Of a DNA stretch of 61,565 nt, positions 50,269 to 61,554 are shown piece by piece. The stretch lies in the IMG/VR virus record IMGVR_UViG_3300044941_000051, positions 1 through 61,565 of that record; one strand, written 5' to 3'. This DNA comes from a virus. The first letter of the stretch is position 1. Each line of letters starts with the position of its first letter. Both the position numbers and the translations under genes were made by a program. The notes beneath the pieces were generated by a model. It was not told the DNA's origin. It was given only the letters and a program-made list of their open reading frames with translations, and made no database searches.

Positions 50269-50334
50269 GCTCCTATATCACGCTGGCGCCTCGCGCTGCT
50301 CGACGCGACATATCACGCCGCGTGATATAGGAGC
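50269..50334. terminator. Long inverted repeat between convergent genes
   Basis: GCTCCTATATCACG (50269-50282) and CGTGATATAGGAGC (50321-50334) are complementary over 14 bases, across a 38-base loop that holds a palindrome copy. It separates the rightward operon (end 50263) from the leftward gene (end 50343) and may terminate or insulate both. Confidence 0.55.
50310..50328. repeat. Palindrome copy 3 (consensus ATATCACGCCGCGTGATAT)
   Basis: Perfect consensus copy between convergent genes, inside the inverted repeat 50269-50334. First copy of the right-end cluster. Confidence 0.9.
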
Positions 50335-50342
50335 TAGTCGTC

Positions 50343-50600
50343 TCAAGCTTCGCGCAGGAAGCGCACGCCGAGCACGCCGTCTTCCGTCACAACACGGTAC
50401 TTGAACTTCGACCCCTTGATCCGGTTCGTCGCGCTGCGGATGTACCGGGCTGCTCGCCTCGGCGCCGTTTCCTCTGCCCAGAAGAACGACATACCCACCG
50501 GGCAGTTCATCATCGCCACAACAGCTGCCGCCGGGGGCCGGCCTGCGCCGGCGTTAATGCGCGGCGGCAGCGGCACCGGCTCGTAGATCACTTTGGTCAT
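50343..50600 (-). CDS. Hypothetical protein (85 aa)
   Basis: ATG 50600 (MTKVIYEPVPLPPRINAGAGRPP) with GGAGG upstream. Mid-protein AMMNCPVGMSFFWAEETAPRRAARYI and KFKYRVVTEDGVLGVRFLRE at the end; beta-rich. No recognised family. Overlaps the HNH gene stop by ATGA. Confidence 0.55.
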   Translation of the reverse strand: MTKVIYEPVPLPPRINAGAGRPPAAAVVAMMNCPVGMSFFWAEETAPRRAARYIRSATNRIKGSKFKYRVVTEDGVLGVRFLREA

Positions 50601-50884
50601 CGAGGCCTCCTTGGTTTGCGATAAGAGTAGATAGTCCACCACTCAGGTGTGCGTTGGCGGAATGCTTCCCACTCTGCAGGGGTCATTGCCCCTTTGACGT
50701 GATTACACGCTCTGCAGCACAACACAACATTATCTTCATCGCCCCCGTGCATAACCACGGGGATGACGTGATCCCTTGTTACCAGCAGGGGGTGGCTGGG
50801 CCCCACGCTGTCGTCACCGATCATTCGTCGGCCGCACCAGTGACACGGCTGTCCGTGCCCCTGGCGTAACCTGTTGCCTCCCAC
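50597..50884 (-). CDS. HNH endonuclease (95 aa)
   Basis: GTG start at 50884. CHWCGRRM, then TRDHVIPVVMHGGDEDNVVLCCRACNHVKG: two CxxC zinc knuckles around DHVIP and the Asn of ACNHVKG form a complete HNH active site. Small HNH proteins aid packaging or act as mobile endonucleases. The position among accessory nucleases, away from the terminase, leaves both open. Confidence 0.8.
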   Translation of the reverse strand: MGGNRLRQGHGQPCHWCGRRMIGDDSVGPSHPLLVTRDHVIPVVMHGGDEDNVVLCCRACNHVKGAMTPAEWEAFRQRTPEWWTIYSYRKPRRPR

Positions 50885-51174
50885 GTTGCCTCCTCTAGTA
50901 GCTCAGCTACCTTCGCTACATTGTCCTCGTTAACCACTAGGGCCAGACCCCCGGCGCCGATGATCTGCTCGAGGTTCTTCTTCTGCAGATCGGTTGGCCT
51001 GTTCTTTCCGGCCTTACACTCGATACCGAAAAAGCGCCCCTTATAGCAGCCGACGATGTCGGGCACCCCAGACGCGCCGTACCCGCCCATTACCGGGTAG
51101 AAATAGTAGGCGCCCAGCGCTTTCAGCTGAGCGACCACAAGCCTCTTCACCTTGACTTCAGGCCCGCTAGCCAT
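50821..51174 (-). CDS. VRR-NUC family nuclease (117 aa)
   Basis: ATG 51174 (MASGPEVKVKRLVVAQLKALGAYYFYPVMGG) with GASGVPDIVGCYKGRFFGIECKAGKNRPTDLQ. The VPDI...GIECK pattern is the PD-(D/E)XK core of VRR-NUC domains, structure-specific nucleases close to Holliday-junction resolvases. It probably acts in phage recombination or in debranching before packaging. Overlaps the HNH gene by 64 bases. Confidence 0.78.
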   Translation of the reverse strand: MASGPEVKVKRLVVAQLKALGAYYFYPVMGGYGASGVPDIVGCYKGRFFGIECKAGKNRPTDLQKKNLEQIIGAGGLALVVNEDNVAKVAELLEEATWEATGYARGTDSRVTGAADE

Positions 51175-51505
51175 CGGAAAGCTCCTTCGGTTTGACAATC
51201 CAGTAGTGGTCGTCGTCGATACGCGCGCCGACGCCGTAGATGTTGGCCTCTGTGAGTCCTCTGCCCTGAAGCATGTTGACGACAGCCACACGGTCTTTCA
51301 CCCACTCGGGCAAGTCCTTGGTCTTGAGTAGGAACTCGTTCGGGGGCTCGATCTTTGCGGCACCGATATACACCATGTACCACGTCTCATCGCCGAGGTA
51401 ATCGAGACGCCAGAGTTCGTTAACCAGCTCGTCGCAGATCATTGCGACTTGTGCAGCAGTCGGCCCGAAAAGGTGCCCTCGCTTTAACCACGTTTCTCCT
51501 GTCAT
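51167..51505 (-). CDS. Hypothetical protein (112 aa)
   Basis: ATG 51505 with GGAG six bases upstream; a GTG four codons earlier exists. MTGETWLKRGHLFGPTAAQVAMICDELVNELWRLDY and EFLLKTKDLPEWVKDRVAVVNMLQG, IDDDHYWIVKPKELSDG at the end. Mixed alpha/beta. No recognised family. Overlaps the nuclease gene by eight bases. Confidence 0.5.
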   Translation of the reverse strand: MTGETWLKRGHLFGPTAAQVAMICDELVNELWRLDYLGDETWYMVYIGAAKIEPPNEFLLKTKDLPEWVKDRVAVVNMLQGRGLTEANIYGVGARIDDDHYWIVKPKELSDG

Positions 51506-51559
51506 TCGATACTCCACTTTGTTGTGTTCACGCTCGCAGGCAGGCGCTCTGCCGTGACC

Positions 51560-51691
51560 TTATCGTGCACACCATTCAGTCTCTCCTCGCCGCGTCGGCT
51601 TGCAGCGTTCGTAGAACCGCATGGCCTCGCCGTAGCTGTCGAGGTTGAAGTCACGGTGCTTGTCGAGAAACTCTTTGCTGTACTTGGTCAT
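51560..51691 (-). CDS. Small protein (43 aa)
   Basis: ATG 51691 with AGGAGAGAAC directly upstream, the same start cassette used by many genes in this region. MTKYSKEFLDKHRDFNLDSY then GEAMRFYERCKPTRRGE. Basic and helical. Its good ribosome-binding site supports it despite the small size. Confidence 0.6.
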   Translation of the reverse strand: MTKYSKEFLDKHRDFNLDSYGEAMRFYERCKPTRRGETEWCAR

Positions 51692-51714
51692 GTTCTCTCT
51701 CCTCTTTCTGCGGC

Positions 51715-51733
51715 ATATCACGCCGCATGATAT
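51715..51733. repeat. Palindrome copy 4 (ATATCA-CGCCGCA-TGATAT)
   Basis: Between the 51560-51691 and 51761-52960 genes. Directly followed on the plus strand by a GGCTGCGCC/GGCGCAGCC hairpin at 51734-51755. Confidence 0.9.
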
Positions 51734-51755
51734 GGCTGCGCCTCTCGGCGCAGCC
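51734..51755 (-). terminator. Intergenic hairpin GGCTGCGCC-TCTC-GGCGCAGCC
   Basis: Nine-pair stem directly downstream of the VWA gene stop on the leftward transcript. The same stem is found after the MoxR gene (55967-55988) and after the 59555-60094 gene (59528-59549). Confidence 0.65.
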
Positions 51756-51760
51756 GGTTC

Positions 51761-52960
51761 TCAGAACTCGCCCGACGACACGTGCACCACTTGCCCGTGC
51801 GGGGGGCGGCAGTTCTTGTTGTCGACGATCACCCACAGCACGGGGCACGGCCACTGGCCCCATGACCCACCGAAGTAGCCGTCGGTGAAGACGATAGCGC
51901 ACTGGGCCTTGATGCCATGCTTAGCCATGTGCTCCGGCACGCACTCGACCATGGTGCCACCGCCGCCAGCGGGCTTGGTGCTCTGGATCATGGTGTCCAG
52001 TTCGTGCCGCTCGTAGCGCTCGTCGCCGCAGACCTTGGTGTCCCAATAGAGGATGCGGACAGCCTCGGGGTGGACAGTCTCGGCGATGGCTGCCAGTTCC
52101 GACATCATGCGCTGGACTTCCCGGGCGCCGATGGAACCCGACATGTCGGGTGCGACGACGATCTCGCCGATCTGCTCGCTGACGCCGGATGGCATGTAGA
52201 TGTCCTGCGCGAGATACCGGCGGTTGGGCTTGCGCCAGCTTGTATAGTCATTGCCGGCACAGGTCGTCGTGATGAACTCGCGCAGCACCTCGGGCCACGG
52301 CTGGGTCGCTTCCAGCAGCTCGTCGAACGTCCGGCTGCCACCGGACCCCAGCTTGCCCGCAGCGATGGACCCCTGCCGCAGGGCCTCGTCGAGACGCTGC
52401 GCCAGGTCCTGTGCTTCCTCGGCGGTCATGTCCTTGGCACCGTCCCAGTCGTGCATGTCGAAGCCCTCGCCCGGGTGGCCCTGGCCAGCACCGCCGCCCC
52501 CTTGCTGCTGCTGCAGGTCACGGAACACGCGCGGGCTGTCCCAGCCCAGATACTTCGTATCGTAGCAACCCTTGCTCAGCGGACCGGTCATGGTGGCGAA
52601 CTTGTCTTTCTTGTTCTCCTCGACCAGCTGCGTGTTGATCACGAAGTCGCACGCCATATTGGCACGCATACTGTCAATATCGAACATCCAGCGCAGGTTG
52701 CGCAGGTGGCGGTAGATCTTGTGGTAGACCTCATGCAGCACAAGGAAGCGCAACTCGCTGTCCTTGAGGCTCTCGACGAAGGCACGGGAATACCACTCGT
52801 CGCGGCCGTCGGTGCAGGCGGTGCGGATGCGCGGGTCGTCGGTCACTACTCGCTTGCCGACCAGCATGACACCGGACAGGGCGATGTAGCGCGGGTGCGC
52901 CATGATAGCCACGACGGCTTTCTGTATCCGCTGCTCTGCGGTGGGCTTGTTATGGAACAT
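51761..52960 (-). CDS. VWA-domain putative metallopeptidase (DUF2201-like)
   Basis: 399 residues. N-terminal DUF2201-type domain with LVLHEVYHKIYRH (HExxH, His76, Glu77, His80) and a C-terminal VWA-like domain with DMSGS (MIDAS, 272-276) and later IVFTDGYFGG. A Gln/Gly-rich linker (residues 149-165) and a disordered loop separate them. In bacteria such proteins pair with MoxR AAA+ ATPases; a MoxR-type ATPase is encoded at 56003-57091 in the same direction. The upstream leader has a palindrome copy and AGGAGAGA. The HExxH is complete, so peptidase activity is plausible but unproven. Confidence 0.85.
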   Translation of the reverse strand: MFHNKPTAEQRIQKAVVAIMAHPRYIALSGVMLVGKRVVTDDPRIRTACTDGRDEWYSRAFVESLKDSELRFLVLHEVYHKIYRHLRNLRWMFDIDSMRANMACDFVINTQLVEENKKDKFATMTGPLSKGCYDTKYLGWDSPRVFRDLQQQQGGGGAGQGHPGEGFDMHDWDGAKDMTAEEAQDLAQRLDEALRQGSIAAGKLGSGGSRTFDELLEATQPWPEVLREFITTTCAGNDYTSWRKPNRRYLAQDIYMPSGVSEQIGEIVVAPDMSGSIGAREVQRMMSELAAIAETVHPEAVRILYWDTKVCGDERYERHELDTMIQSTKPAGGGGTMVECVPEHMAKHGIKAQCAIVFTDGYFGGSWGQWPCPVLWVIVDNKNCRPPHGQVVHVSSGEF

Positions 52961-53023
52961 CTTCTCTCTCCTTTGTTATATCACGCTCACGCCTCGCTGG
53001 CGCTTCGCCCCGCTCGACGCCGC

Positions 53024-53042
53024 ATATCATGCGGCGTGATAT
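53024..53042. repeat. Palindrome copy 5 (ATATCA-TGCGGCG-TGATAT)
   Basis: Between the VWA gene start and the stop of the 53047-53319 gene, four bases from that stop. A partial unit of the 53-bp repeat seen at 59041 lies beside it (52984-53020). Confidence 0.9.
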
Positions 53043-53046
53043 GCGC

Positions 53047-53319
53047 TCAGTCTTCGAACTCGTCCTCGTCATCTTCCGGCTCGTCAAACGCGGCGAACGC
53101 CGGGGTCTTGTCGCGCTTCAGGATGGCCTTCTGCGCCTTGCGGATCAGCATGGTGAACCGATGCGCTTGCTTCCGCACGTAGATGTCCGTGCGGCGCTTC
53201 TCGGCCAGCGGCAGCGGCGCTGCTGCCACGGCCTTGCCGTAGGCGATGACGGTTTCCCACGCCGCCCGCCACAGTTCGATCTTCGCCTCCAGGGTGACGA
53301 CATGCTTATCCTTCTTCAT
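53047..53319 (-). CDS. Hypothetical protein with acidic tail (90 aa)
   Basis: MKKDKHVVTLEAKIELWRAAWETVIAYGKAV, a helical and basic body ending in a strongly acidic tail (DEPEDDEDEFED). ATG 53319. No family. A short 18-residue frame (53316-53372) is coupled upstream. Confidence 0.55.
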   Translation of the reverse strand: MKKDKHVVTLEAKIELWRAAWETVIAYGKAVAAAPLPLAEKRRTDIYVRKQAHRFTMLIRKAQKAILKRDKTPAFAAFDEPEDDEDEFED

Positions 53320-53372
53320 GTCTTCTTCCTCCTGACGACGATTTCGATCCCGAGATCGTGGGTGACGGCCAC
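53316..53372 (-). CDS. Possible 18-residue coupled peptide
   Basis: GTG 53372 with AGGAG seven bases upstream and a stop overlapping the next start. MAVTHDLGIEIVVRRKKT as read from GTG. May be a leader for the 53047-53319 gene. Confidence 0.35.
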   Translation of the reverse strand: MAVTHDLGIEIVVRRKKT

Positions 53373-53376
53373 GGGC

Positions 53377-53796
53377 CTACTCCTGCGTGAAGCCGTGGAA
53401 CCAGCCGGGCCCACGGGTGTCAGGGCGGCTGCACCACGCCTGCGCCTCGGCCAGGGTCAGGCCGCGACGGATGACGCGCCGGCGCCCGTTGCGCGAGAAG
53501 CGGATGATCTTGTAGGTGGCCATGTCAGTTCTCCTCTTGTTGGCTTCGGGCAGGGACTCCCACAGGCAGTAGGACTCGTCGCCACCGGTGGGCAGCCAGT
53601 CGGACTCGTAGGGCTCGATGTTCTCGTCGTCGCACTGGCAGGACCAGTCCATGTGCCACTCCACGACCCCGTGGGCGGTGTTTTTGTTGTAGTAGTTGCG
53701 CCAGACGCAGGGGTTGCCGCTGGTGTCCACGTCGAGGTGGGCGAAGTCGGGGTGCCCGAGACGCACGAGGTCCGCGCGGGTGGCGTAGGTGGTCAT
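53377..53796 (-). CDS. Possible fusion of two genes with an internal start (139 aa)
   Basis: The frame runs from ATG 53796 (MTTYATRADLVRLGHPDFAHLDVD) to the stop at 53377. At ATG 53523 there is an internal start preceded by AAGAGGAGAACTGAC, the same leader used by neighbours (54074, 54534), and the last 48 residues (MATYKIIRFSRNGRRRVIRRG) look like an independent small protein. The first part contains several cysteines (SCQCDDENIEP). It seems the upstream gene lost its stop, giving a fusion while the internal start was kept. Both products are likely. Confidence 0.55.
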   Translation of the reverse strand: MTTYATRADLVRLGHPDFAHLDVDTSGNPCVWRNYYNKNTAHGVVEWHMDWSCQCDDENIEPYESDWLPTGGDESYCLWESLPEANKRRTDMATYKIIRFSRNGRRRVIRRGLTLAEAQAWCSRPDTRGPGWFHGFTQE

Positions 53797-54074
53797 GTCT
53801 CAATCTCCAGATATGCAACAGCGAAGACTGCCATGGCGAACGGATCGTTGCCGACGAGCAGGAACCCGTCCGCGTCGTCGCTGGGATCCCACAGCACCCA
53901 CAGGCCCTTGTTCTCGGCCGCACGGGCGATCAGGGCCTCGGCATCGTTGAGGTGCGTGCGCGCCTCGGCCTCGAACACCGGGCGCAGGTCGATGGCGTAA
54001 CCGTGCGTGGCCAGCGCCCGGAGCGCCGCGAACGGCGGCTCCTTCTGGCCGGGTTTGAAGTTTTTCTGGATCAT
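53793..54074 (-). CDS. Hypothetical protein (93 aa)
   Basis: ATG 54074 with GAAGGAGAACTGAC upstream. MIQKNFKPGQKEPPFAALRALATHG then LNDAEALIARAAENKGLWVLWDPSDDADGFLLVGNDPFAMAVFA. Alpha/beta. No family. It overlaps the next gene start by ATGA. Confidence 0.55.
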   Translation of the reverse strand: MIQKNFKPGQKEPPFAALRALATHGYAIDLRPVFEAEARTHLNDAEALIARAAENKGLWVLWDPSDDADGFLLVGNDPFAMAVFAVAYLEIET

Positions 54075-54117
54075 GTCAGTTCTCCTTCTGTCGAAGTTTG
54101 CGACACATGTCACAAAG

Positions 54118-54534
54118 TCAGGGCAGCATCTGCGCGGCGGCGTTTGCCCGGTTCCGCATCTCGTCCAGCCACGCATCCCAGCGCAGCGCAGCGGCGACGC
54201 GCGCAGAGTCGGTCGCCTCGTCGAGCGTGAGCAGGATCGACCCGTCATAGGATTCGTAAAACGTGACGACAGCAGGCGCGATGGCCGGGTCGAACAGCAT
54301 GACGGAGGCGTCGTACTCGTAGCCCCGTCCAGCGCGCCACGCGAAGGGTGTACCGGTGCTGGTCAGGTAGTTCTCCACCTCCCCGGGCAGCATGCCGTAG
54401 TTAATTTCTTCCCAGCTGTGCTCGAGCAGCGAGAAGGTGTCGGTCGGCTCGCCCAGCGTCTTGTCGAGCACCGCCTGCAGCGCAGCCGATGGCGGCGCGG
54501 CAAGGATCAGGGTGCAGTAAGTGCGGTCTTTCAT
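54118..54534 (-). CDS. Hypothetical protein (138 aa)
   Basis: ATG 54534 with GAAGGAGAACTGAC upstream, the same start cassette as neighbours. MKDRTYCTLILAAPPSAALQAVLDKTLGEPTDTF, HSWEEINYGMLPGEVENYLTST and VTFYESYDGSILLTLDEATDSARVAAALRW. A mixed fold of unknown role. Confidence 0.55.
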   Translation of the reverse strand: MKDRTYCTLILAAPPSAALQAVLDKTLGEPTDTFSLLEHSWEEINYGMLPGEVENYLTSTGTPFAWRAGRGYEYDASVMLFDPAIAPAVVTFYESYDGSILLTLDEATDSARVAAALRWDAWLDEMRNRANAAAQMLP

Positions 54535-54562
54535 GTCAGTTCTCCTTCTGAGCGTGATATGG

Positions 54563-55477
54563 CTATTCCTCGTCGTCCCAGCCGAGGCTGGGGAGCGACT
54601 TCAGCACCTTCTGCATCTCCTCGCGAGTGCTCTCGCGGAACGTGGGGTTCCGCACGAGGTCATCCTTGACCACGCCGGCCAGCGTGCGCTCGAGCGTCTC
54701 CTGTGCCTCGGTCAGCACCGGGTTGCCGGTGAAGTTGCTCACGGCGAGCATCTCCGCCAGCTCGCGGATGTTGTCGATGGTGCTGTCGAAGATCCGCCCC
54801 TTCTCGTCGCCGGTCCCCAGCTGCCGCACGAATGTGGTCAGCTGCTTGCGCAGGTCGTCGACCTTGCTCTGCACCGCGCGCTCGGTCTGCTGGCGATAGA
54901 AGGTCTCATACTGTTCGCGCAGCATGCTGCGCGCCTCGTTCTCCATGTCCACCCGCCAATCGCCCACCTCGGGCACCGGGATGTAGGACAGCCGGAAGGC
55001 GAACTTGCAGCGAACCGCCTCGGTGGTGGGGTATTCGTCACGCACGAACAGATCGCCCAGCTTGGCGTGCACCTGCGCCACCTGCCATGTGTAGGCGCCG
55101 AGGAACCGTTCCACGAGGGCGTCGAACTCGTTTTGCAGGCGCGTCATGGCGGCCTGATAGGCGAAGAACTTCGCGGTAGGCAGCAGGCGCAAGCCGCTGT
55201 CGGTCCACGGCAGCGTCATGCCGTAGTGCATGTTCCGGGCGTTCGCGGCGAACTTCTGGATCGCAATCAGTTCCTCGCAGTCAGCTAGCAGGTTCTTGTT
55301 GAACGCGCCGGCCGACTTGGCCGCACGCTTGTCGGCCAGCAGGTCGTTCGTGGCGGCCTTGTCCTTGCGCCGCGCGGTCCAGACGCTGATCGACAGATCG
55401 ACCAGCATCGCCGAGCTGGCGATGGAAGGCACGGCATGTGCCGGGGGCACGGGCTGGGTGGTGTAGTCGGTCATCAT
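54563..55477 (-). CDS. DUF3150-like protein, likely partner of MoxR and VWA
   Basis: 304 residues. SAMLVDLSISVWTARRKDKAATNDLLADK, KNLLADCEELIAIQKFAANARNMHYGMTLPW, LLPTAKFFAYQAAMTRLQNEFDALVERFL and a long coiled-coil end. This pattern is the DUF3150 family, repeatedly found beside MoxR/CobS-like ATPases and VWA proteins in phages and mobile elements. The C-terminus is SLPSLGWDDEE, an acidic tip. AAGGAGAGAG precedes the start, with a palindrome directly upstream. Function is unknown. Confidence 0.65.
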   Translation of the reverse strand: MMTDYTTQPVPPAHAVPSIASSAMLVDLSISVWTARRKDKAATNDLLADKRAAKSAGAFNKNLLADCEELIAIQKFAANARNMHYGMTLPWTDSGLRLLPTAKFFAYQAAMTRLQNEFDALVERFLGAYTWQVAQVHAKLGDLFVRDEYPTTEAVRCKFAFRLSYIPVPEVGDWRVDMENEARSMLREQYETFYRQQTERAVQSKVDDLRKQLTTFVRQLGTGDEKGRIFDSTIDNIRELAEMLAVSNFTGNPVLTEAQETLERTLAGVVKDDLVRNPTFRESTREEMQKVLKSLPSLGWDDEE

Positions 55478-55494
55478 TTTCTCTCTCCTTTGTT

Positions 55495-55513
55495 ATATCA
55501 CGTCGCGTGATAT
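55495..55513. repeat. Palindrome copy 6 (ATATCA-CGTCGCG-TGATAT)
   Basis: Between the start of the DUF3150 gene and the stop of the 55518-55934 gene. On the leftward strand it is followed directly by AACAAAGGAGAG, the ribosome-binding site of the DUF3150 gene. Confidence 0.9.
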
Positions 55514-55517
55514 GCGA

Positions 55518-55934
55518 TTACACGTTCACTTGCACCGTGCGGACCACCCGCACGGTGTCGCAGGCGATGTCGTAAAGCCCGTAAGACACGGCGCAGTCGT
55601 CTTTGCCCTCATAGCTCTCCTCGATGTCATTAACTTCCTCGCCTACGCGGACGAAGCCCCAGGCCCACAAAAAGCCGCGCTCTTCGTCGAACTGATCGAG
55701 CAGGGTGCGCATGTGCATGAAGGCTTGCACATCCTCGTAACTCTCATACCACTTGACGCTTTCCATCGAGCAGTAGAGCAGCGTCACGCCGTCGCTGAAC
55801 ACCTTGTGCTTCCAGTAATCGGCCACGCCGTATTTCTGCACGTTGGGGTGCAGGCAGTAGACGGCCATCACCTCATCGGCATGCGCCTTGCTCTCGAACA
55901 CGGCCACCATGGCCACGTCGCTACGGTATCCCAT
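55518..55934 (-). CDS. Conserved phage protein MGYRSDV family (138 aa)
   Basis: ATG 55934. MGYRSDVAMVAVFESKAHADEVMAVYC and LYCSMESVKWYESYEDVQAFMHMRTLLDQ are typical of a small phage family whose members start MGYRSDV. Predicted alpha/beta. Function unknown. Located between the DUF3150 and MoxR genes, so it may be part of that group or a passenger. Confidence 0.6.
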   Translation of the reverse strand: MGYRSDVAMVAVFESKAHADEVMAVYCLHPNVQKYGVADYWKHKVFSDGVTLLYCSMESVKWYESYEDVQAFMHMRTLLDQFDEERGFLWAWGFVRVGEEVNDIEESYEGKDDCAVSYGLYDIACDTVRVVRTVQVNV

Positions 55935-55947
55935 TTTCTTCCCTCCT

Positions 55948-55966
55948 ATATCACGCCACGTGATAT
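55948..55966. repeat. Palindrome copy 7 (ATATCA-CGCCACG-TGATAT)
   Basis: Between the 55518-55934 gene and the MoxR gene, followed by the 55967-55988 hairpin on the plus strand. Confidence 0.9.
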
Positions 55967-55988
55967 GGCTGCGCCTTGCGGCGCAGCC
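55967..55988 (-). terminator. Intergenic hairpin GGCTGCGCC-TTGC-GGCGCAGCC
   Basis: Nine-pair stem after the MoxR gene stop on the leftward transcript, followed by a palindrome copy. Repeats the module at 51734-51755 and 59528-59549. Confidence 0.65.
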
Positions 55989-56002
55989 GGTTTCCTGTTT
56001 CC

Positions 56003-57091
56003 TCAAATGTCCGCGCCGAACAGGTGCGCGTTCTTGCGGGCGTAGTCGGTGAACGCCTTGTGGGTGGCCACCATGCCGGCCTTGGCGTAGCCTTTCGCCC
56101 GCACGCCGTTGGCGAACATGGCCTGTGCTTCGGCGGGCAGGCGGTTGAGGTAGATCATCCACGCGTCGAGCCAGTCGCGCTCGATGGACGCCAGCGCACG
56201 GAAGACGATCATGCACAGGGCTGCGGGGTTGTCCGGCACCTTGGCGGTCTCGGGCGTCTCCTTGATGGACTTCTGGGTCGGCAGCTTGTTGGCCAGGGTG
56301 ATGAACGCCTGCATGTCCAGCGCGGCACGGGTGCCGAGCGTTCCGATCAGGGCGGCAGTCAGGGTGTGGCTGTCCATCCGATCCCGCAGCTTGACCAGCA
56401 TGCTGGCCGTCTCGAGGCTGCGGCCGGTGACGAAACCGTCGCGCCCGACGGCGCGCGGGTGGTAGATGAGCGGGTTGTCTTCGGGGTTTTTGATTTCCCT
56501 GAAGTCCTGCATGCAGTGCGGGTTCTCCCGCACCCACCCGGCCACGACGGGGTCGATGTCGTTGTTGATGGCCCAGATAACCCATTCGTCCGCCGTCGCC
56601 TTGCGGAGCTCGACGACGATGATGCGGTTGCGCGTGTGCGCAGGCAGCATGTCGCCCAGACCCTCGGCAGTGAGGTTCGAGGTTGCGAACAGGATCGACT
56701 CCGGGTGCAGCTTGTAGCGCCCCATCTGCCGCTCCAGAATGAAGCGGTTCAGGGGGTTCATGATGGATTTGTTCTTGCCGAACTCGTCCAGCATGATGAT
56801 GCTCGGGGTGTCTTGCAGATGCAGGCCGAGCTCCTCGTTGGTGGCGAAGGTCACATAGTCGTTGTCGCCGACGTTCTTCATGCGCGGCAGCATGAGATCG
56901 CCCGCCTCCTTCGTGGTGCAGTCGAAGTAGATCGGCAGGTGCGTCGGGTGCCGCTCGGCCAGCATCCTCAGCAGGGCGGTCTTGCCGGTGCCGGTGTGGC
57001 CGAGCACCAGCACGGTCTTCTTATGACCGACGAGGCTGATGAGGTCGACGGTCTGCTGGTGGTTCAGTCTGTAGATGTTCGCGTTGTCCAT
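56003..57091 (-). CDS. MoxR-type AAA+ ATPase
   Basis: 362 residues. Walker A GHTGTGKTAL (31-38), Walker B SIIMLDEF (Asp102, Glu103), sensor 1 SILFATSN, and an arginine-rich AHTRNRI. MoxR ATPases remodel proteins with a VWA partner. The same operon has a VWA metallopeptidase (51761-52960) and a DUF3150 protein (54563-55477). The leader has AGAAGGAGAAAACCA before ATG 57091 and a palindrome directly upstream. The start region is duplicated at 57164-57186. Confidence 0.85.
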   Translation of the reverse strand: MDNANIYRLNHQQTVDLISLVGHKKTVLVLGHTGTGKTALLRMLAERHPTHLPIYFDCTTKEAGDLMLPRMKNVGDNDYVTFATNEELGLHLQDTPSIIMLDEFGKNKSIMNPLNRFILERQMGRYKLHPESILFATSNLTAEGLGDMLPAHTRNRIIVVELRKATADEWVIWAINNDIDPVVAGWVRENPHCMQDFREIKNPEDNPLIYHPRAVGRDGFVTGRSLETASMLVKLRDRMDSHTLTAALIGTLGTRAALDMQAFITLANKLPTQKSIKETPETAKVPDNPAALCMIVFRALASIERDWLDAWMIYLNRLPAEAQAMFANGVRAKGYAKAGMVATHKAFTDYARKNAHLFGADI

Positions 57092-57106
57092 TGGTTTTCT
57101 CCTTCT

Positions 57107-57125
57107 ATATCACGCGGCGTGATAT
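57107..57125. repeat. Palindrome copy 8 (ATATCA-CGCGGCG-TGATAT)
   Basis: Immediately upstream of the MoxR ribosome-binding site on the leftward strand. Confidence 0.9.
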
Positions 57126-57175
57126 GGGGTTTTGTTTTCCGTCGTGGTGCCGGCGCAGCCGGTCGCGTTGTCCAT
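57110..57175 (-). pseudogene. Duplicated MoxR start, 21-residue relic
   Basis: The 22 bases covering the MoxR ribosome-binding site and first codons (57081-57102) recur at 57165-57186. From its ATG at 57175 a 21-residue frame (MDNATGCAGTTTENKTPYHAA) reads into the palindrome and stops in it. It seems to be a remnant of a duplicated start. Confidence 0.55.
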
Positions 57176-57199
57176 TGGTTTTCTCCGTCAGGTGGGTTT

Positions 57200-57230
57200 A
57201 TATCACGCCGCATATCATGCGGCGTGATAT
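57200..57230. repeat. Palindrome copy 9, extended (31 bp)
   Basis: The usual core ATATCA-TGCGGCG-TGATAT (57212-57230) is extended to the left by ATATCACGCCGC, giving a 31-bp palindrome (ATATCACGCCGCAT - ATC - ATGCGGCGTGATAT). Shows how half-sites can be joined. Confidence 0.9.
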
Positions 57231-57238
57231 GGTTTGTT

Positions 57239-57499
57239 TTACGGCTCCGCCGTGGTGGCGCAGCCGGCAGCGTACTGATCACGCAGCGCAGCGTCGGCAC
57301 GGCGGAGCTGCCGGCTGTCGTGCCACTTGTCGCTTTTGTACATCGGGTATGAGCACTTCCGCAGGTTGTCGGCCCAGCGCAGGGCCTTGGTCATCATGTC
57401 GGCCGAGCCAAAAAAGCGGCGCATGACGGGCAGGGCGTGGGCGATGGCACGCTGGCGCTGAGCGCGGCGCCAGGCGCGGTCACGGGTGGTCTTGTCCAT
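57239..57499 (-). CDS. Hypothetical basic protein (86 aa)
   Basis: ATG 57499 with GGAGAGAAC upstream. MDKTTRDRAWRRAQRQRAIAHALPVMRRFFG then WADNLRKCSYPMYKSDKWHDSRQLRRADAALRDQY. Very Arg-rich, possibly nucleic-acid-binding. No family. Its gene borders, near hairpins and palindromes, follow the module seen for the neighbours. Confidence 0.55.
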   Translation of the reverse strand: MDKTTRDRAWRRAQRQRAIAHALPVMRRFFGSADMMTKALRWADNLRKCSYPMYKSDKWHDSRQLRRADAALRDQYAAGCATTAEP

Positions 57500-57520
57500 G
57501 TTCTCTCCTTTTCTCCTTCT

Positions 57521-57539
57521 ATATCACGTCACATGATAT
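57521..57539. repeat. Palindrome copy 10 (ATATCA-CGTCACA-TGATAT)
   Basis: Between the 57239-57499 start and the 57529-58065 stop; the latter gene ends within the palindrome, so its last codons are coded by it. Core is the most degenerate of the set. Confidence 0.85.
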
Positions 57540-58065
57540 GCGCTTTCAGCTTTTCCGGCAGCGCAGCGAGCAGCTGCTCGGGGTCGATCTCGGCATCGGC
57601 ATCGGGGGCGGTTCCGGCGATGCTCACGGCCAGCGGATGGAGCCTCCTGAACATCGCGATGACCTCGACCCGGTCGATCACCCCGGCCTGCTCCAACGCA
57701 GTGTAGACCGCCACCGCAACGGGGTCTCCATTGTAGACCGGAGTGGCCAATTCGACGTGCAGAGGCCCGCGGTGCAGCGTCTCGGGCATCCCGAGGACGC
57801 GGCGGCAGGTGTAGATGCAGGTGCCGTCCACCATGATCTTGACCATGTTCTGGTGCAGGTAGTGGGCCGCCTCGGGGTTGTAGATCGCGTTGCGGATCTC
57901 CTCCGGCGCCACCGCGCGGACGGCATCGCGCACGATGCCGTCGATGCGCTTCGGGTCCAGCTGCTTCCTCGCACGGCGCCGCGCCTGCATCCCGTAACGG
58001 GGCAGGCCGTAGACCGGGTGGGTCATCGCTTTGCCGATCAACTTCAGAGCGTCATACTTGTCCAT
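57529..58065 (-). CDS. Hypothetical protein (178 aa)
   Basis: ATG 58065 with AAAGGAGAGAAC upstream. MDKYDALKLIGKAMTHPVYGLPRYGMQARRRARKQLDPKRIDGIVRDAVRAV, then AIYNPEAAHYLHQNMVKIMVDGT, and LAALPEKLKAHIM at the end. Helical and basic at the start. Its stop lies inside palindrome copy 10. No known family. Confidence 0.55.
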   Translation of the reverse strand: MDKYDALKLIGKAMTHPVYGLPRYGMQARRRARKQLDPKRIDGIVRDAVRAVAPEEIRNAIYNPEAAHYLHQNMVKIMVDGTCIYTCRRVLGMPETLHRGPLHVELATPVYNGDPVAVAVYTALEQAGVIDRVEVIAMFRRLHPLAVSIAGTAPDADAEIDPEQLLAALPEKLKAHIM

Positions 58066-58080
58066 GTTCTCTCCTTTCGT

Positions 58081-58170
58081 TTAGCCGTCGCCGTTGCCGC
58101 GGCCGTAGCCGCGACCGCGACCGTTGCCGTTGCCGTAGCCGTTGCCGTTGCCGTAGCCGTTGATGTTCAT
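58081..58170 (-). CDS. Gly-X dipeptide-repeat mini-protein (29 aa)
   Basis: ATG 58170 with AAGGGAGAAC upstream. After MNI the protein alternates Gly with Asn, Tyr, Arg or Asp to the stop (NGYGNGNGYGNG and on). It is the shortest of three such genes (also 58528-58755 and 58771-59028). The repeat is at DNA level a hexamer of the type CCGTTG/CCGTAG/CCGCGA on the plus strand. Confidence 0.6.
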   Translation of the reverse strand: MNINGYGNGNGYGNGNGRGRGYGRGNGDG

Positions 58171-58195
58171 GTTCTCCCTTCGGGTCCGGTTGTGC

Positions 58196-58510
58196 CTACG
58201 GCTTCGCCGTGGCGGCGCCGCGGATCGTGGCGACGGCCAGGCCGGCGCACGGTATGATCTCGCACACGCCGGCGACGATCAGGTCCGGCAGGGTCTCGGT
58301 GATTTTGCTCTCCTTGTGGTTGATGCCGAAGATGGCGATTTCGGACAGGCTGAGGCCGTGGCCGCCCGTGCTCCACACGTACAGCCGGCGACTGTCCTTG
58401 AGCCGCACGGCTGTGCCGCTGACAGCGACAAGGGTACCGAAATGCACCCCGCTGTCGTTCGAACGGACCAAAACCTCGGCCCCGATCAGGTCTGCTGCAA
58501 GTCTTTCCAT
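58196..58510 (-). CDS. DUF6948-like protein (104 aa)
   Basis: ATG 58510. RSNDSGVHFGTLVAVSGTAVRLKDSRRLYVWSTGGHGLSLSEIAIFG resembles the DUF6948 pattern: VHxGTL ... LxxxRRxWxWxG ... LSEIA. The C-terminal VAGVCEIIPCAGLA agrees. These are small phage proteins of unknown role, often near host-takeover genes. It lies between two of the Gly-X genes. Confidence 0.6.
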   Translation of the reverse strand: MERLAADLIGAEVLVRSNDSGVHFGTLVAVSGTAVRLKDSRRLYVWSTGGHGLSLSEIAIFGINHKESKITETLPDLIVAGVCEIIPCAGLAVATIRGAATAKP

Positions 58511-58527
58511 TGGTTCTCTCCTCTTGC

Positions 58528-58755
58528 TTAGCCGCGACCGTTGCCGTCGCCGTTGCCGTCGCCGCGACCGCTGCCGTTGCCGTCGCCGTAGCCGTAGCCG
58601 CGACCGTCGCCGTTGCCGCTGCCGTTGCTGCGACCGTTGCCGTTGCCGTAGCCGCGACCGCTGCCGTTGCCGCGACCGTTGCCGCGACCGCTGCCGTTGC
58701 CGCGACCGTTGCTGCTGCCGTTGCCGTAGCCGTAGCCGTAGCCGTTGCTGTTCAT
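58528..58755 (-). CDS. Gly-X dipeptide-repeat protein (75 aa)
   Basis: ATG 58755 with AAAGAGGAAAGAAC upstream. Starts MNSNGYGYGYGNGSSNGRGNGSG and continues with every second residue Gly, the other positions Tyr, Asn, Arg, Ser or Asp. No hydrophobic core is possible. Codon-level hexamer repeats suggest expansion by slippage. Confidence 0.65.
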   Translation of the reverse strand: MNSNGYGYGYGNGSSNGRGNGSGRGNGRGNGSGRGYGNGNGRSNGSGNGDGRGYGYGDGNGSGRGDGNGDGNGRG

Positions 58756-58770
58756 GTTCTTTCCTCTTTC

Positions 58771-59028
58771 TTAGCCGTGGCCGTGGCCGTGGCCGTTGCC
58801 GTTGCCGTCGCCGTAGCCGTGGCCGTGGCCGCGACCGTTGCCGCTGCCGCTGCCGTTGCTATGGCCGTGGCCGTCGCCGCTGCCGCTGCCGTTGCCGCGA
58901 CCGTTGCCGTGGCCGTTGCCGTAGCCGTAGCCGTACTCGTAGCCGCTGCCGTAGCTGTAGCCGTAGCCGTAGCCGTAGCCGCGACCGTTGCCGTGGCCGT
59001 TGCCGATGCCGTTGCTGTTGCTGTTCAT
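58771..59028 (-). CDS. Gly-X dipeptide-repeat protein (85 aa)
   Basis: ATG 59028 with GGAGGAGAGAAC upstream. MNSNSNGIGNGHGNGRGYGYGYGYSYG onwards, alternating Gly with Asn, His, Tyr, Arg, Ser, Asp. His is common at the end (GHGHGHG). Low-complexity, probably disordered or phase-separating; any function is unknown. Together with the other two genes it forms a family unlike typical phage genes. Confidence 0.65.
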   Translation of the reverse strand: MNSNSNGIGNGHGNGRGYGYGYGYSYGSGYEYGYGYGNGHGNGRGNGSGSGDGHGHSNGSGSGNGRGHGHGYGDGNGNGHGHGHG

Positions 59029-59040
59029 GTTCTCTCCTCC

Positions 59041-59199
59041 ATATCACGCTCACGCCTCGCTGGCGCTTCGCGTCGCTCGACGCGGCGTGTTACATATCAC
59101 GCTCACGCCTCGCTGGCGCTTCGCGTCGCTCGACGCGGCGTGTTACATATCACGCTCACGCCTCGCTGGCGCTTCGCGTCGCTCGACGCGGCGTGTTAC
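59041..59199. repeat. Three tandem copies of a 53-bp repeat
   Basis: Three identical units, 59041-59093, 59094-59146 and 59147-59199. Each starts with the half-palindrome ATATCACGCT and ends GGCGTGTTAC; CACGCC near the start and GGCGTG near the end can pair. Related partial units are at 52984-53020 and 60108-60135. A full palindrome follows at 59200. Confidence 0.95.
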
Positions 59200-59495
59200 A
59201 TATCACGCCACGTGATATTCACGTCGTAGCACATGCATCCGTCCACGCCGTACGGCGTTCCCTCGTGGTCCCACGCGAAGAACCGCTCGGGCTCGGCACC
59301 GGCGGGGCCAGCGGCCAGGCCGATGCTCCACACCGGGCCCATCTCGCGCAGCTCCTGCGCCCACGCGGTAAAGGCGCGGCGCTCCGCGTCGCCGACATCG
59401 GCGACACCGAACAGGGCGGGCAGCCAGTGCTCGGGCACCGGCAGGGTGATCGTCGTGAAGGCGCCGTGGGCGCCGGTGGTGTAGTTCGTGGTCAT
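59196..59495 (-). CDS. Hypothetical protein whose end is coded by a palindrome (99 aa)
   Basis: ATG 59495 with GAGAGAAG upstream. MTTNYTTGAHGAFTTITLPVPEHWLPALFGVADVGDAERRAF and FFAWDHEGTPYGVDGCMCYDVN. The last residues, ITWRDM, are read from palindrome copy 11, and the stop lies at its junction with the 53-bp repeat. This suggests that the original C-terminus was replaced. No family recognised. Confidence 0.6.
   Translation of the reverse strand: MTTNYTTGAHGAFTTITLPVPEHWLPALFGVADVGDAERRAFTAWAQELREMGPVWSIGLAAGPAGAEPERFFAWDHEGTPYGVDGCMCYDVNITWRDM
59200..59218. repeat. Palindrome copy 11 (ATATCA-CGCCACG-TGATAT)
   Basis: Forms the 3-prime end of the 59196-59495 gene (codes ITWRD) and directly abuts the third 53-bp repeat. 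Confidence 0.9.
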
Positions 59496-59508
59496 TTTCT
59501 TCTCTCCT

Positions 59509-59527
59509 ATATCACGCCGCGTGATAC
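59509..59527. repeat. Palindrome copy 12 (ATATCA-CGCCGCG-TGATAC)
   Basis: One arm mismatch. Between the 59196-59495 start and the 59555-60094 stop; followed on the plus strand by the 59528-59549 hairpin. Confidence 0.9.
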
Positions 59528-59549
59528 GGCTGCGCCGCAAGGCGCAGCC
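59528..59549 (-). terminator. Intergenic hairpin GGCTGCGCC-GCAA-GGCGCAGCC
   Basis: Third example of the stem that follows leftward stops before a palindrome (also 51734 and 55967). Confidence 0.65.
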
Positions 59550-59554
59550 GGGGT

Positions 59555-60094
59555 TCACTTCTTCTTGCGCACGTAGAGCGTCACGGTCGGGGTCATCTGC
59601 ACGATGTAATCGTGCGGCTCGTCCTTCGTGGCGCGCAGCAGCGTGCGGTCGGCAGGCGGCAGCAAGCGGTCGACACGCAGCATGTCCTCGAACGCTTCCC
59701 GCGTCAGGTGCACCGGCTGCTTCGCCTTCCGGCGCTTCCGCGCCTTCGGCGCCTTCGGCGCCATATCACGCGGCGTGATATGCAGCGGCGCCTGCGCAGT
59801 CGCAGGCGGCGCCTCCGGCAGCGGCGGCAGCTTGATGTGCCGAACACCTTCGGCGCCTTCGGCCTTGCGCGGCATGGGCGGAACCCGGTCGGACGTGCGC
59901 ACGATGGGCGCGGCGTTGTTGGTGGCACGGGTTCCGCCCATGCCGATGTCGGCAGGGCGCTCGACGCGATAGGTCAGGTTCTTCAGCACGGGCACGAAAA
60001 TGCCGCGGGCCTCGAGCCAGGCTTCATGCGCGGCCTTCGCCTCGGGGCTGGCGCCGCGCGGCTGACTGCGCGGCAGGCGGACGTGAACGATCAT
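59555..60094 (-). CDS. Hypothetical protein with an in-frame palindrome insertion (179 aa)
   Basis: ATG 60094 with AAGGAGAGAGAAG upstream; first gene after the strong leftward promoter at 60198-60226. MIVHVRLPRSQPRGASPEAKAAHEAWLEARGIF, then a Pro/Ala linker in which palindrome copy 13 codes HITPRDM without breaking the frame, then KAPKARKRRKAKQPVHLTREAF and YIVQMTPTVTLYVRKKK. The basic linker suggests nucleic-acid contact. No family recognised. Confidence 0.6.
   Translation of the reverse strand: MIVHVRLPRSQPRGASPEAKAAHEAWLEARGIFVPVLKNLTYRVERPADIGMGGTRATNNAAPIVRTSDRVPPMPRKAEGAEGVRHIKLPPLPEAPPATAQAPLHITPRDMAPKAPKARKRRKAKQPVHLTREAFEDMLRVDRLLPPADRTLLRATKDEPHDYIVQMTPTVTLYVRKKK
59763..59781. repeat. 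Palindrome copy 13 (ATATCA-CGCGGCG-TGATAT), inside a gene
   Basis: Lies within the coding region 59555-60094 and is read as ITPRD in the gene frame, with no stop. This frame is one of the two that stay open through the element. Confidence 0.92.
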
Positions 60095-60135
60095 CTTCTC
60101 TCTCCTTGCTGGCGCTTCGCGCCGCTCGACGCTGC

Positions 60136-60154
60136 ATATCACGTGGCGTGATAT
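60136..60154. repeat. Palindrome copy 14 (ATATCA-CGTGGCG-TGATAT)
   Basis: In the leader between the predicted leftward promoter (60198-60226) and the ATG at 60094. A partial 53-bp unit lies beside it. Confidence 0.9.
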
Positions 60155-60197
60155 GGGTTAGGCACGGGACCGGGGCATAATCCTCGATCATGCTTAC

Positions 60198-60226
60198 AGC
60201 ATAGCATAATATGTGTTAAATGTCAA
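60198..60226 (-). promoter_or_regulatory. Strong leftward sigma-70-type promoter
   Basis: On the leftward strand: TTGACA (60221-60226), a 17-base spacer and TATGCT (60198-60203), a perfect -35 and a fair -10. Predicted start near 60191, about 97 bases upstream of ATG 60094. It probably drives the early leftward block. Confidence 0.65.
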
Positions 60227-60305
60227 TAACCCTGAACAATATACGTGCATAGGGTTCGGCGTAGCGTAGCACCGCTTGGCGCAGCGTAGCACCGCATCGC
60301 GGGGC

Positions 60306-60324
60306 ATATCACGCGGCGTGATAT
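60306..60324. repeat. Palindrome copy 15 (ATATCA-CGCGGCG-TGATAT)
   Basis: About 80 bases upstream of the leftward promoter in the non-coding right end, followed by GGCGCC-TC-GGCGCC, and then by the first GTAACA repeats. Confidence 0.9.
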
Positions 60325-60339
60325 GCAGCGGCGCCTCGG

Positions 60340-60960
60340 CGCCAGTAACAAATCGAAATGGGGGGTCCAGTAACAGATTGAAATGTGCCGTTCGTAAACT
60401 GATAGTTTTTTAGGCACGGCCACAGATTGATGGCACCTCGAAAATAACGTTCAAAACCGGCTAAGTCTTTGAAAAGAAACGAACTTAACATGTGAACTGT
60501 TATGAACGTTACTGGACGACTTGAAATCGCTAACATTACTTTGTTTTCAATGGGATGCACGTAACAGATTGCGCAAGGCCTTGAAATCGCAGGGATCTCG
60601 GGGGAGGGGGTAAACTGAGAAAGTGTAGTAAAATCAAGTAGGTAGGTATAAAGTTACTTTGTTACTATCTGGGGAATATTATCCCGACTTTTTTTTTGAT
60701 CCGGTTGTGTTACTGGAGATTTTTCCCGCTGCGGTTGTTTTCAGCCGCAGGTTGTGCGAGCTTCGCCGTTTCGATGTTGCATTTGGCCGAAAATTTTGGG
60801 GGGGTATATCTCCAGTCCAGTAACATATGAACAGTATAATGAAATCAAGGACTTACCAGTAACATTTGGTTCCTCACGATAACAGATTCGACTTTTCAAG
60901 GACTTAGCTAGTTTTGTTTCAAGCGCAATATACTGCACATCGTTTGTTTTCAATGACTTA
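60340..60960. other. AT-rich non-coding block with scattered repeats
   Basis: Clearly richer in A+T than the rest of the window. It contains scattered GTAACA/TGTTAC motifs in both orientations (60345, 60370, 60561, 60707, 60822 and others) and repeats of TTGAAATCGC and GTTTTCAATG. No credible gene is seen. The combination with the phased repeats to its right suggests an origin or another control site. Confidence 0.6.
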
Positions 60961-61171
60961 CAGGGCACCTGGCCCGAGTGCTCCAGTAACAGATCGAGCC
61001 CGCCGGTTGCGCCGTGCGCACAACCACAAGTGGCACGACCCAGTAACAGATTGAAATTTGGCTTCAGTAACAGATCGCCTCGCGCCCTTCAGTAACAGAT
61101 CGCTGTCCATTTTTCGGTAACAGATCGAAAATTGGTCCCGGTAACGGATCGAAGTCGGGGGCGCCAGTAAC

Positions 61172-61190
61172 ATATCACGCCGCGTGATAT
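61172..61190. repeat. Palindrome copy 16 (consensus)
   Basis: Inside the phased GTAAC array, fused as GTAAC-ATATCACGCC..., with no change to the array spacing. Confidence 0.92.
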
Positions 61191-61320
61191 GGTAACAGAT
61201 CACCGTTAGGGCGTCGGTAACAGATCGAAATCGGGGCTTCAGTAACAGATTGGCGCGAGCGCGCCGGTAACAGATCGTCGCCAGGCGCCGGTAACAGATC
61301 GAAATCGAGGCGCCGGTAAC

Positions 61321-61339
61321 ATATCACGCCGCGTGATAT
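61321..61339. repeat. Palindrome copy 17 (consensus)
   Basis: Ends the phased array, again directly after GTAAC. Confidence 0.92.
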
Positions 61340-61357
61340 GGCCTCGGCCGGGGTCGA

Positions 61358-61554
61358 TGCTGACTGCGCGCCGTGCCCCATGCTGTGTTGGGAACTGGTG
61401 GCTGGTGCTGAGTGCAGAGGTCGGAACGACCTGGTGGGCGCGGAGGAGATGCTGAGTGCAGAGGTCGGAACGACCTGGTGGGCATATCACGCGGCGTGAT
61501 ATGGGCCCGGTGCTGACTGCGCGCCGTGCCTCATGCTGTGTTGGGAACTGGTGG
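61358..61554. repeat. Terminal direct repeats A and B
   Basis: Repeat A: 61358-61401 and 61511-61554, 44 bases with one mismatch. Repeat B: 61406-61439 and 61450-61483, 34 bases, perfect, with an internal hairpin AGGTCG-GAA-CGACCT. No gene. Confidence 0.9.
61484..61502. repeat. Palindrome copy 18 (ATATCA-CGCGGCG-TGATAT)
   Basis: Last copy, between terminal repeat B2 and A2, 60 bases from the right end. Confidence 0.9.

Follow-up and report, generated by a model that had tools for sequence, protein, structure and literature searches.

Phage genes for Gly-X (GX) dipeptide repeat proteins are linked to genes of the DUF6948 family, and the linkage is found whether the search starts from the Gly-X arrays or from DUF6948. 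In one locus both are fused into a single open reading frame (ORF), the arrays change length in frame, and selection on them acts at the level of the amino acids. We propose that the disordered Gly-X peptides work together with DUF6948, which would be a phage Sm-like ring protein that binds RNA or single-stranded DNA and receives its chain in trans; we consider the chances of this explanation to be about even. An odd repeat thus becomes a testable two-gene module, which hundreds of phage contigs contain and which cultured phages carry as well. The literature searched contains no description of such Gly-X phage proteins.

Gly-X genes of the window and their surroundings

The window, i.e., the whole stretch of DNA that was analyzed, is an entire IMG/VR record of 61,565 bases and includes genes for a terminase, portal, DNA polymerase, primase and helicase. 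A nucleotide search among phage records gave no match. The region of interest comprises the following features:

58771..59028, minus strand: GX1, Gly-X repeat protein of 85 aa, begins MNSNSNGIGNGHG; SD GGAGGAGAGAAC before the ATG
58528..58755, minus strand: GX2, Gly-X repeat protein of 75 aa, begins MNSNGYGYGYGNG; SD GAGGAAAGAAC before the ATG
58196..58510, minus strand: DUF6948 protein of 104 aa, predicted Sm/LSm fold, conserved partner; Pfam PF22253, E 1.4e-21
58081..58170, minus strand: GX3, Gly-X repeat protein of 29 aa, begins MNINGYGNGNG; SD GAAGGGAGAAC before the ATG
57529..58065, minus strand: ORF of 178 aa after GX3, no family
56003..57091, minus strand: MoxR-like AAA+ ATPase (phrog_1297, E 2.3e-41), kept downstream in syntenic relatives
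54563..55477, minus strand: DUF3150 protein, downstream, kept in the relatives L014, L015 and L016

The three Gly-X genes lie exactly where an earlier note on this DNA had placed them (58081-58170, 58528-58755 and 58771-59028), all on the minus strand, with 15 nt between the stop of GX1 and the start of GX2. The DUF6948 gene between the 29-aa and 75-aa ORFs had been overlooked. As that note had read them, the N-termini are MNIN, MNSN and MNSN. Each ATG is preceded by an AGGAG-like site (GAAGGGAGAAC-ATG, AGAGGAAAGAAC-ATG and GGAGGAGAGAAC-ATG for the 29-, 75- and 85-aa ORFs), although not all of these are literally of the AGGAGA type that had been described. Glycine, 44-45% of the residues, occurs exclusively at even-numbered positions (13/13, 34/34 and 37/37 in the 29-, 75- and 85-aa ORFs); the alternation claimed earlier is therefore correct for every Gly, but a few Gly positions are taken by Ser (e.g., SSNG, YSYG). 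The X residues are N, Y, R, S, H and D with an occasional I or E, and GX1 contains 10 Tyr and 9 His. Without His, the net charge is 0 for GX1, +4 for GX2 and +2 for GX3. The longest unbroken runs in the three ORFs comprise 12, 15 and 13 GX units, compared to a maximum of six in 100 codon-shuffled windows.

Searches of the GX proteins against Pfam and NCBIfam gave nothing above curated cut-offs and only sub-threshold low-complexity matches; those to TrAA12 and ser_rich_anae_1 were rejected as composition effects. PADLOC gave no match for GX1, and its sole hits, all weak, link the MoxR gene to ATPases. A single-sequence protein scan of viral contigs with MoxR was likewise without a match, and relatives of the 178-aa ORF are absent from the loci searched.

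Some further observations concern the window itself. A 53-bp tandem repeat (3.3 copies, 99% match) is located at 59040-59212, directly upstream of GX1. The palindrome ATATCACGNNNCGTGATAT, with an 8-bp stem and a 3-nt loop, is present in 18 copies at 131-1528 and 50310-61502; it is restricted to both contig ends, is found zero times in 100 shuffles and has a shape similar to that of the hairpin promoters used by virion RNA polymerases of the N4 type. The 2239-aa ORF at 28739-35458 has a DarB-like match (phrog_10089, 4.8e-41) as well as a weak match to a virion RNA polymerase (phrog_2206, 6.7e-4). Positions 1-112 form a run of G with 89% matches, probably a sequencing or assembly artefact.

Linkage of Gly-X arrays and DUF6948

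When the neighbors of Gly-X arrays are clustered, a DUF6948-like family dominates, occurring in 82 of the 111 GX loci listed and always on the same strand. An HMM search finds DUF6948 in 87 of these 111 loci, in 85 cases within 300 nt, all same-strand. With a stricter cut-off, 25 of the 111 loci have no DUF6948; in 17 of these, the stretch examined ends within 400 nt upstream of the array, while in the other eight (e.g., L046) DUF6948 is absent although the upstream DNA is covered. Among comparison loci subjected to the same scan, only 3 of 94 contain DUF6948, and GX-like arrays are present in each of these three as well. The reverse search, performed with a DUF6948 sub-profile alone, yields an array of at least six units in 77 of 80 loci and a short array in two more, the 80 loci being the best-scoring relatives of one subfamily and not a random sample. 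A subfamily alignment served as the query because the full DUF6948 alignment is too divergent for a scan of the collection. Plasmids searched with one DUF6948 subfamily query gave no match.

A natural fusion is present in L032 (4912-5622), where DUF6948 is followed by 43 GX units in a single ORF. Coordinates had indicated three fusion candidates, of which L032 alone passed a check of the reading frame. At E 0.01, Pfam DUF6948 is matched by no more than 28 of 46 partner proteins, which means that our use of the family name takes in a more divergent branch. The net charges of DUF6948 and of its Gly-X peptides do not covary (rho -0.03), and hence no simple charge pairing is seen.

The earlier note had suggested looking for similar genes near MoxR/VWA loci. 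Such a link is real but secondary, as a MoxR gene occurs in 9 of the 111 GX loci listed, compared to 87 for DUF6948. On the minus strand of L046 (1984-3300), a gene with a VWA-like sequence is immediately followed by two GX ORFs (MKYPKGYGYG...) and DUF6948 was not found, an arrangement which implies that an association with VWA on its own may also occur. Several GX ORFs in tandem (MNIKISRGNGNG...) are also found at L170 798-1985, in a stretch of 34% GC on a 119-kb contig; DUF6948 was not found within the 2.5 kb examined there.

The pair is also present in cultured phages: the Rheinheimera Barba phages (115 records; L374), Pectobacterium phage Taid (L375), Iodobacter phage PhiPLPE (L376; GX unannotated) and Vibrio phage IKEMa6-1 (L378). 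Chlorobiaceae phage CV-1-33 has next to DUF6948, and following it, a gene deposited as a Met-Ala repeat protein (L377 2777-3022; MT192033.1 gene25), which is probably a GX array that was translated in the wrong frame for the annotation. Proteomics terms do not occur in the Barba phage paper.

Length change and selection on the peptide

Syntenic relatives of the window were found by a scan for MNxN(GX) starts. The contigs L014 and L002/L015/L016 each carry four long GX ORFs, followed by DUF6948 and the MoxR ATPase, with DUF3150 beyond; L123 also has GX, DUF6948 and MoxR. Neighboring genes in the relatives share about 53-60% amino-acid identity with those of the window (53-55% for the MoxR ATPase of L014, L002, L015, L016 and L123). 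In L014 and L016, the cassettes read AAGGAGA-agcataac-ATG-(GGN NNN)n-GGA-TGA, and L016 additionally contains the mini-ORFs MSNGNG* and MNNNGYGDG* beside and between full cassettes. Recurrence of such SD-ATG-(GGN NNN)n-stop cassettes with the frame always kept suggests, at the level of sequence, that the Gly-X ORFs behave like translated genes, as the earlier note had supposed. Its prediction of in-frame length change could be checked in related phages and holds for all changes seen. L002, L015 and L016 are near-identical, with identical compared flanks, and their arrays differ in length, by multiples of 6 nt that keep the frame, as well as in segments that have been replaced. Length changes among near-identical phages thus consist of whole dipeptide units. 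Among the 60 Barba entries listed, the locus spans 1070, 1076, 1100 or 1112 nt, and four Barba GX ORFs of 210, 216, 240 and 252 nt differ exclusively by multiples of six.

The wider spread of the arrays was explored by a scan for nine GGYNRC units, in which the number of matches is to be read as "at least", and by an unbiased scan for Gly at every second codon, the results of which hold among the matches listed. A coherent class was chosen by requiring that Y, N, D, S, H and R make up at least 75% of the composition. Among the listed matches, its X residues are S, Y, D, N, H and R, while E, Q, K and hydrophobic residues are rare; this rarity is partly built in by the choice. According to the unbiased scan, the class occurs in genomes of 34-68% GC among the matches listed. 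Its serine codons are TCC/TCT, versus AGC in the window group; arginine codons vary between AGA and CGC; AT-rich genomes show T in place of C at third bases. GGC is the dominant glycine codon, while GGT is used freely in the AT-rich genomes. The same X residues being encoded by different synonymous codons, selection acts on the peptide and not on the DNA hexamer, and an origin from the DNA hexamer only is rejected on this codon evidence. A related explanation, in which the arrays are a hexanucleotide microsatellite maintained by slippage with no protein function, would account for near-identical contigs that differ by hexamer units. Yet identical residues are encoded by distinct hexamers (TCN or AGC for Ser, AGA or CGC for Arg, C-to-T third bases), every cassette keeps its SD, start and stop, and DUF6948 is adjacent, which makes this explanation scarcely credible.

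Codon usage also bears on the possibility that the arrays are translated sinks that drain glycyl-tRNA or stall ribosomes and so slow host translation. The dominance of GGC and the mini-ORFs among the full cassettes of L016 would fit such a function. We nevertheless hold it to be very unlikely, as X is strongly restricted (Y, D, S and N; few E, Q, K and hydrophobic residues) while codons vary, GGT is freely used and the pairing with DUF6948 is left unexplained.

Over 183 DUF6948-linked loci, X consists of 35% Tyr, 24% Asp, 22% Ser and 12% Asn, with a median of 0.36 aromatic residues per unit. The GX sets are net acidic in 174 of the 183 loci and net basic in six, one of which is the window; this speaks against a cationic antimicrobial role as the general one. 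The earlier note had raised this role, and a Gly-rich antimicrobial or lysis peptide would match the charges of GX2 and GX3. It would call for a conserved positive charge, which is not found, and the GX sequences show no apparent hydrophobic segment or signal peptide; we consider it hardly probable.

The prevailing acidity rather suits a different explanation, in which the Gly-X peptides act against host factors on their own, as decoys that are aromatic and mostly acidic and that either mimic nucleic acids or self-assemble into scaffolds, and DUF6948 is their regulator or carrier instead of an RNA-binding ring. The aromatic content, the arrays without DUF6948 and the nearby MoxR and DUF3150 genes of the window point in the same direction. 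Against it stand the occurrence of Asp with almost no Glu at X, the neutral to basic peptides of the window itself, and the tight pairing with DUF6948 together with the one fusion. Known helical DNA mimics differ from Gly-X in this use of Asp without Glu. On balance, we regard decoys as unlikely.

A different architecture for GX runs is seen in L070, L056 and L379, where the arrays are followed by a conserved YxIDGVPTII-like C-terminal stretch, in L070 also with an N-terminal domain.

Predicted fold of DUF6948 and a model for the pair

The partner gene of the window is a member of Pfam DUF6948 (PF22253; 76.8 bits at a gathering threshold of 27), a family without a stated function. No paper with DUF6948 was found in the literature searched, neither for an Sm-like fold nor for a Gly-X partner. 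An AlphaFold (AF2) model of the window protein, built with 46 family members, has a pLDDT of 96.3 and consists of a helix and five strands, as expected for the Sm fold with its N-terminal helix and five-stranded bent sheet. A Foldseek search against the PDB gives a best E-value of only 2.8e-3, with a probability of 1.00, and every one of the 50 chains in the VIA-align list is an Sm or LSm protein, at Z 7.8-8.9 and rmsd 1.5-3.0. For a model of a second subfamily (pLDDT 82.8), the 50 chains listed are again all of Sm/LSm fold, including two NatC subunits with this fold, at Z up to 7.9; according to the tool, values below 8 possibly reflect just a common arrangement. Based on these models, DUF6948 likely has an Sm/LSm fold.

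Sequence comparison detects little of this similarity. No significant match of DUF6948 to an Sm1/Sm2 sequence profile was obtained, a PDB sequence search gave no Sm match at E<10, and HHalign against six Sm sequences yielded a probability of 6% (P 0.0064) in the Sm1 register. In this register, the RNA-contact residues (Sm1 Asp/Asn, Sm2 Arg-Gly) appear by eye to be unconserved in DUF6948 alignments. These points weigh against the proposed explanation, as do the Z below 8 of the second subfamily, the missing covariation of charges and the eight GX loci in which DUF6948 is absent. RNA binding by DUF6948 may nevertheless be supposed from the modeled fold, which also lends indirect support to the hint of RNA binding or condensation in the earlier note.

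Under the proposed explanation, the Sm-like DUF6948 would oligomerize into a ring and, early in infection, bind RNA (or single-stranded DNA). Through direct contact, the Gly-X peptides would provide in trans a flexible, Tyr-bearing, usually acidic chain, a role that in SmD1, SmD3, LSm4 and some Hfq proteins would be filled in cis by Gly-rich or RG tails. This chain may either tune binding through competition with nucleic acid or link rings into a larger ribonucleoprotein assembly, possibly by condensation. Slippage by hexamer units and recombination would allow fast changes in chain length with the frame intact. A more specific variant is a dedicated ribonucleoprotein system in phages of many hosts, in which length-tunable Gly-X chains from separate genes would drive a divergent Sm-like ring to assemble into a condensate or shell that encloses RNA of the phage or the host. 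We put this forward tentatively, as a rather unlikely variant; if true, it would be a two-gene counterpart of the eukaryotic Sm proteins with RG tails. DUF6948 in any case gains a structural guess, and the pair offers a small natural system with an Sm-like core and a pure dipeptide chain as separate genes. With such a system one can ask what selects low-complexity sequence of a given composition, and what this sequence does to a core domain.

Known systems resemble the phage pair in part. SmB and LSm4 have the Sm/LSm fold and RG dipeptide tails. The C-termini of SmD1 and SmD3 carry RG dipeptide repeats (PMC3195771). Like the phage pair, these spliceosomal proteins thus combine an Sm fold with a Gly-X dipeptide chain, but their tails are in cis with Arg as X, whereas the phage chain is usually a separate gene, usually acidic, with Y, D, S and N as X. 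Among bacterial Sm proteins, Hfq likewise has a Gly-rich or acidic low-complexity tail as a tuner: GGFGGQ repeats affect RNA binding in Acinetobacter (PMC11617691) and the acidic tip of E. coli Hfq competes with nucleic acid (PMC5606850). The Acinetobacter repeats are hexapeptides in cis on a host protein, and DUF6948 has no significant match to the Sm sequences tested. Finally, Sm ribonucleoproteins of Borgs contain amino-acid tandem repeats (PMC9879509) and share with the phage pair the combination of an extrachromosomal element, an Sm protein and fast-evolving tandem repeats, although the Borg repeats are N-terminal, in cis and of longer units, and belong to archaeal elements instead of phages.
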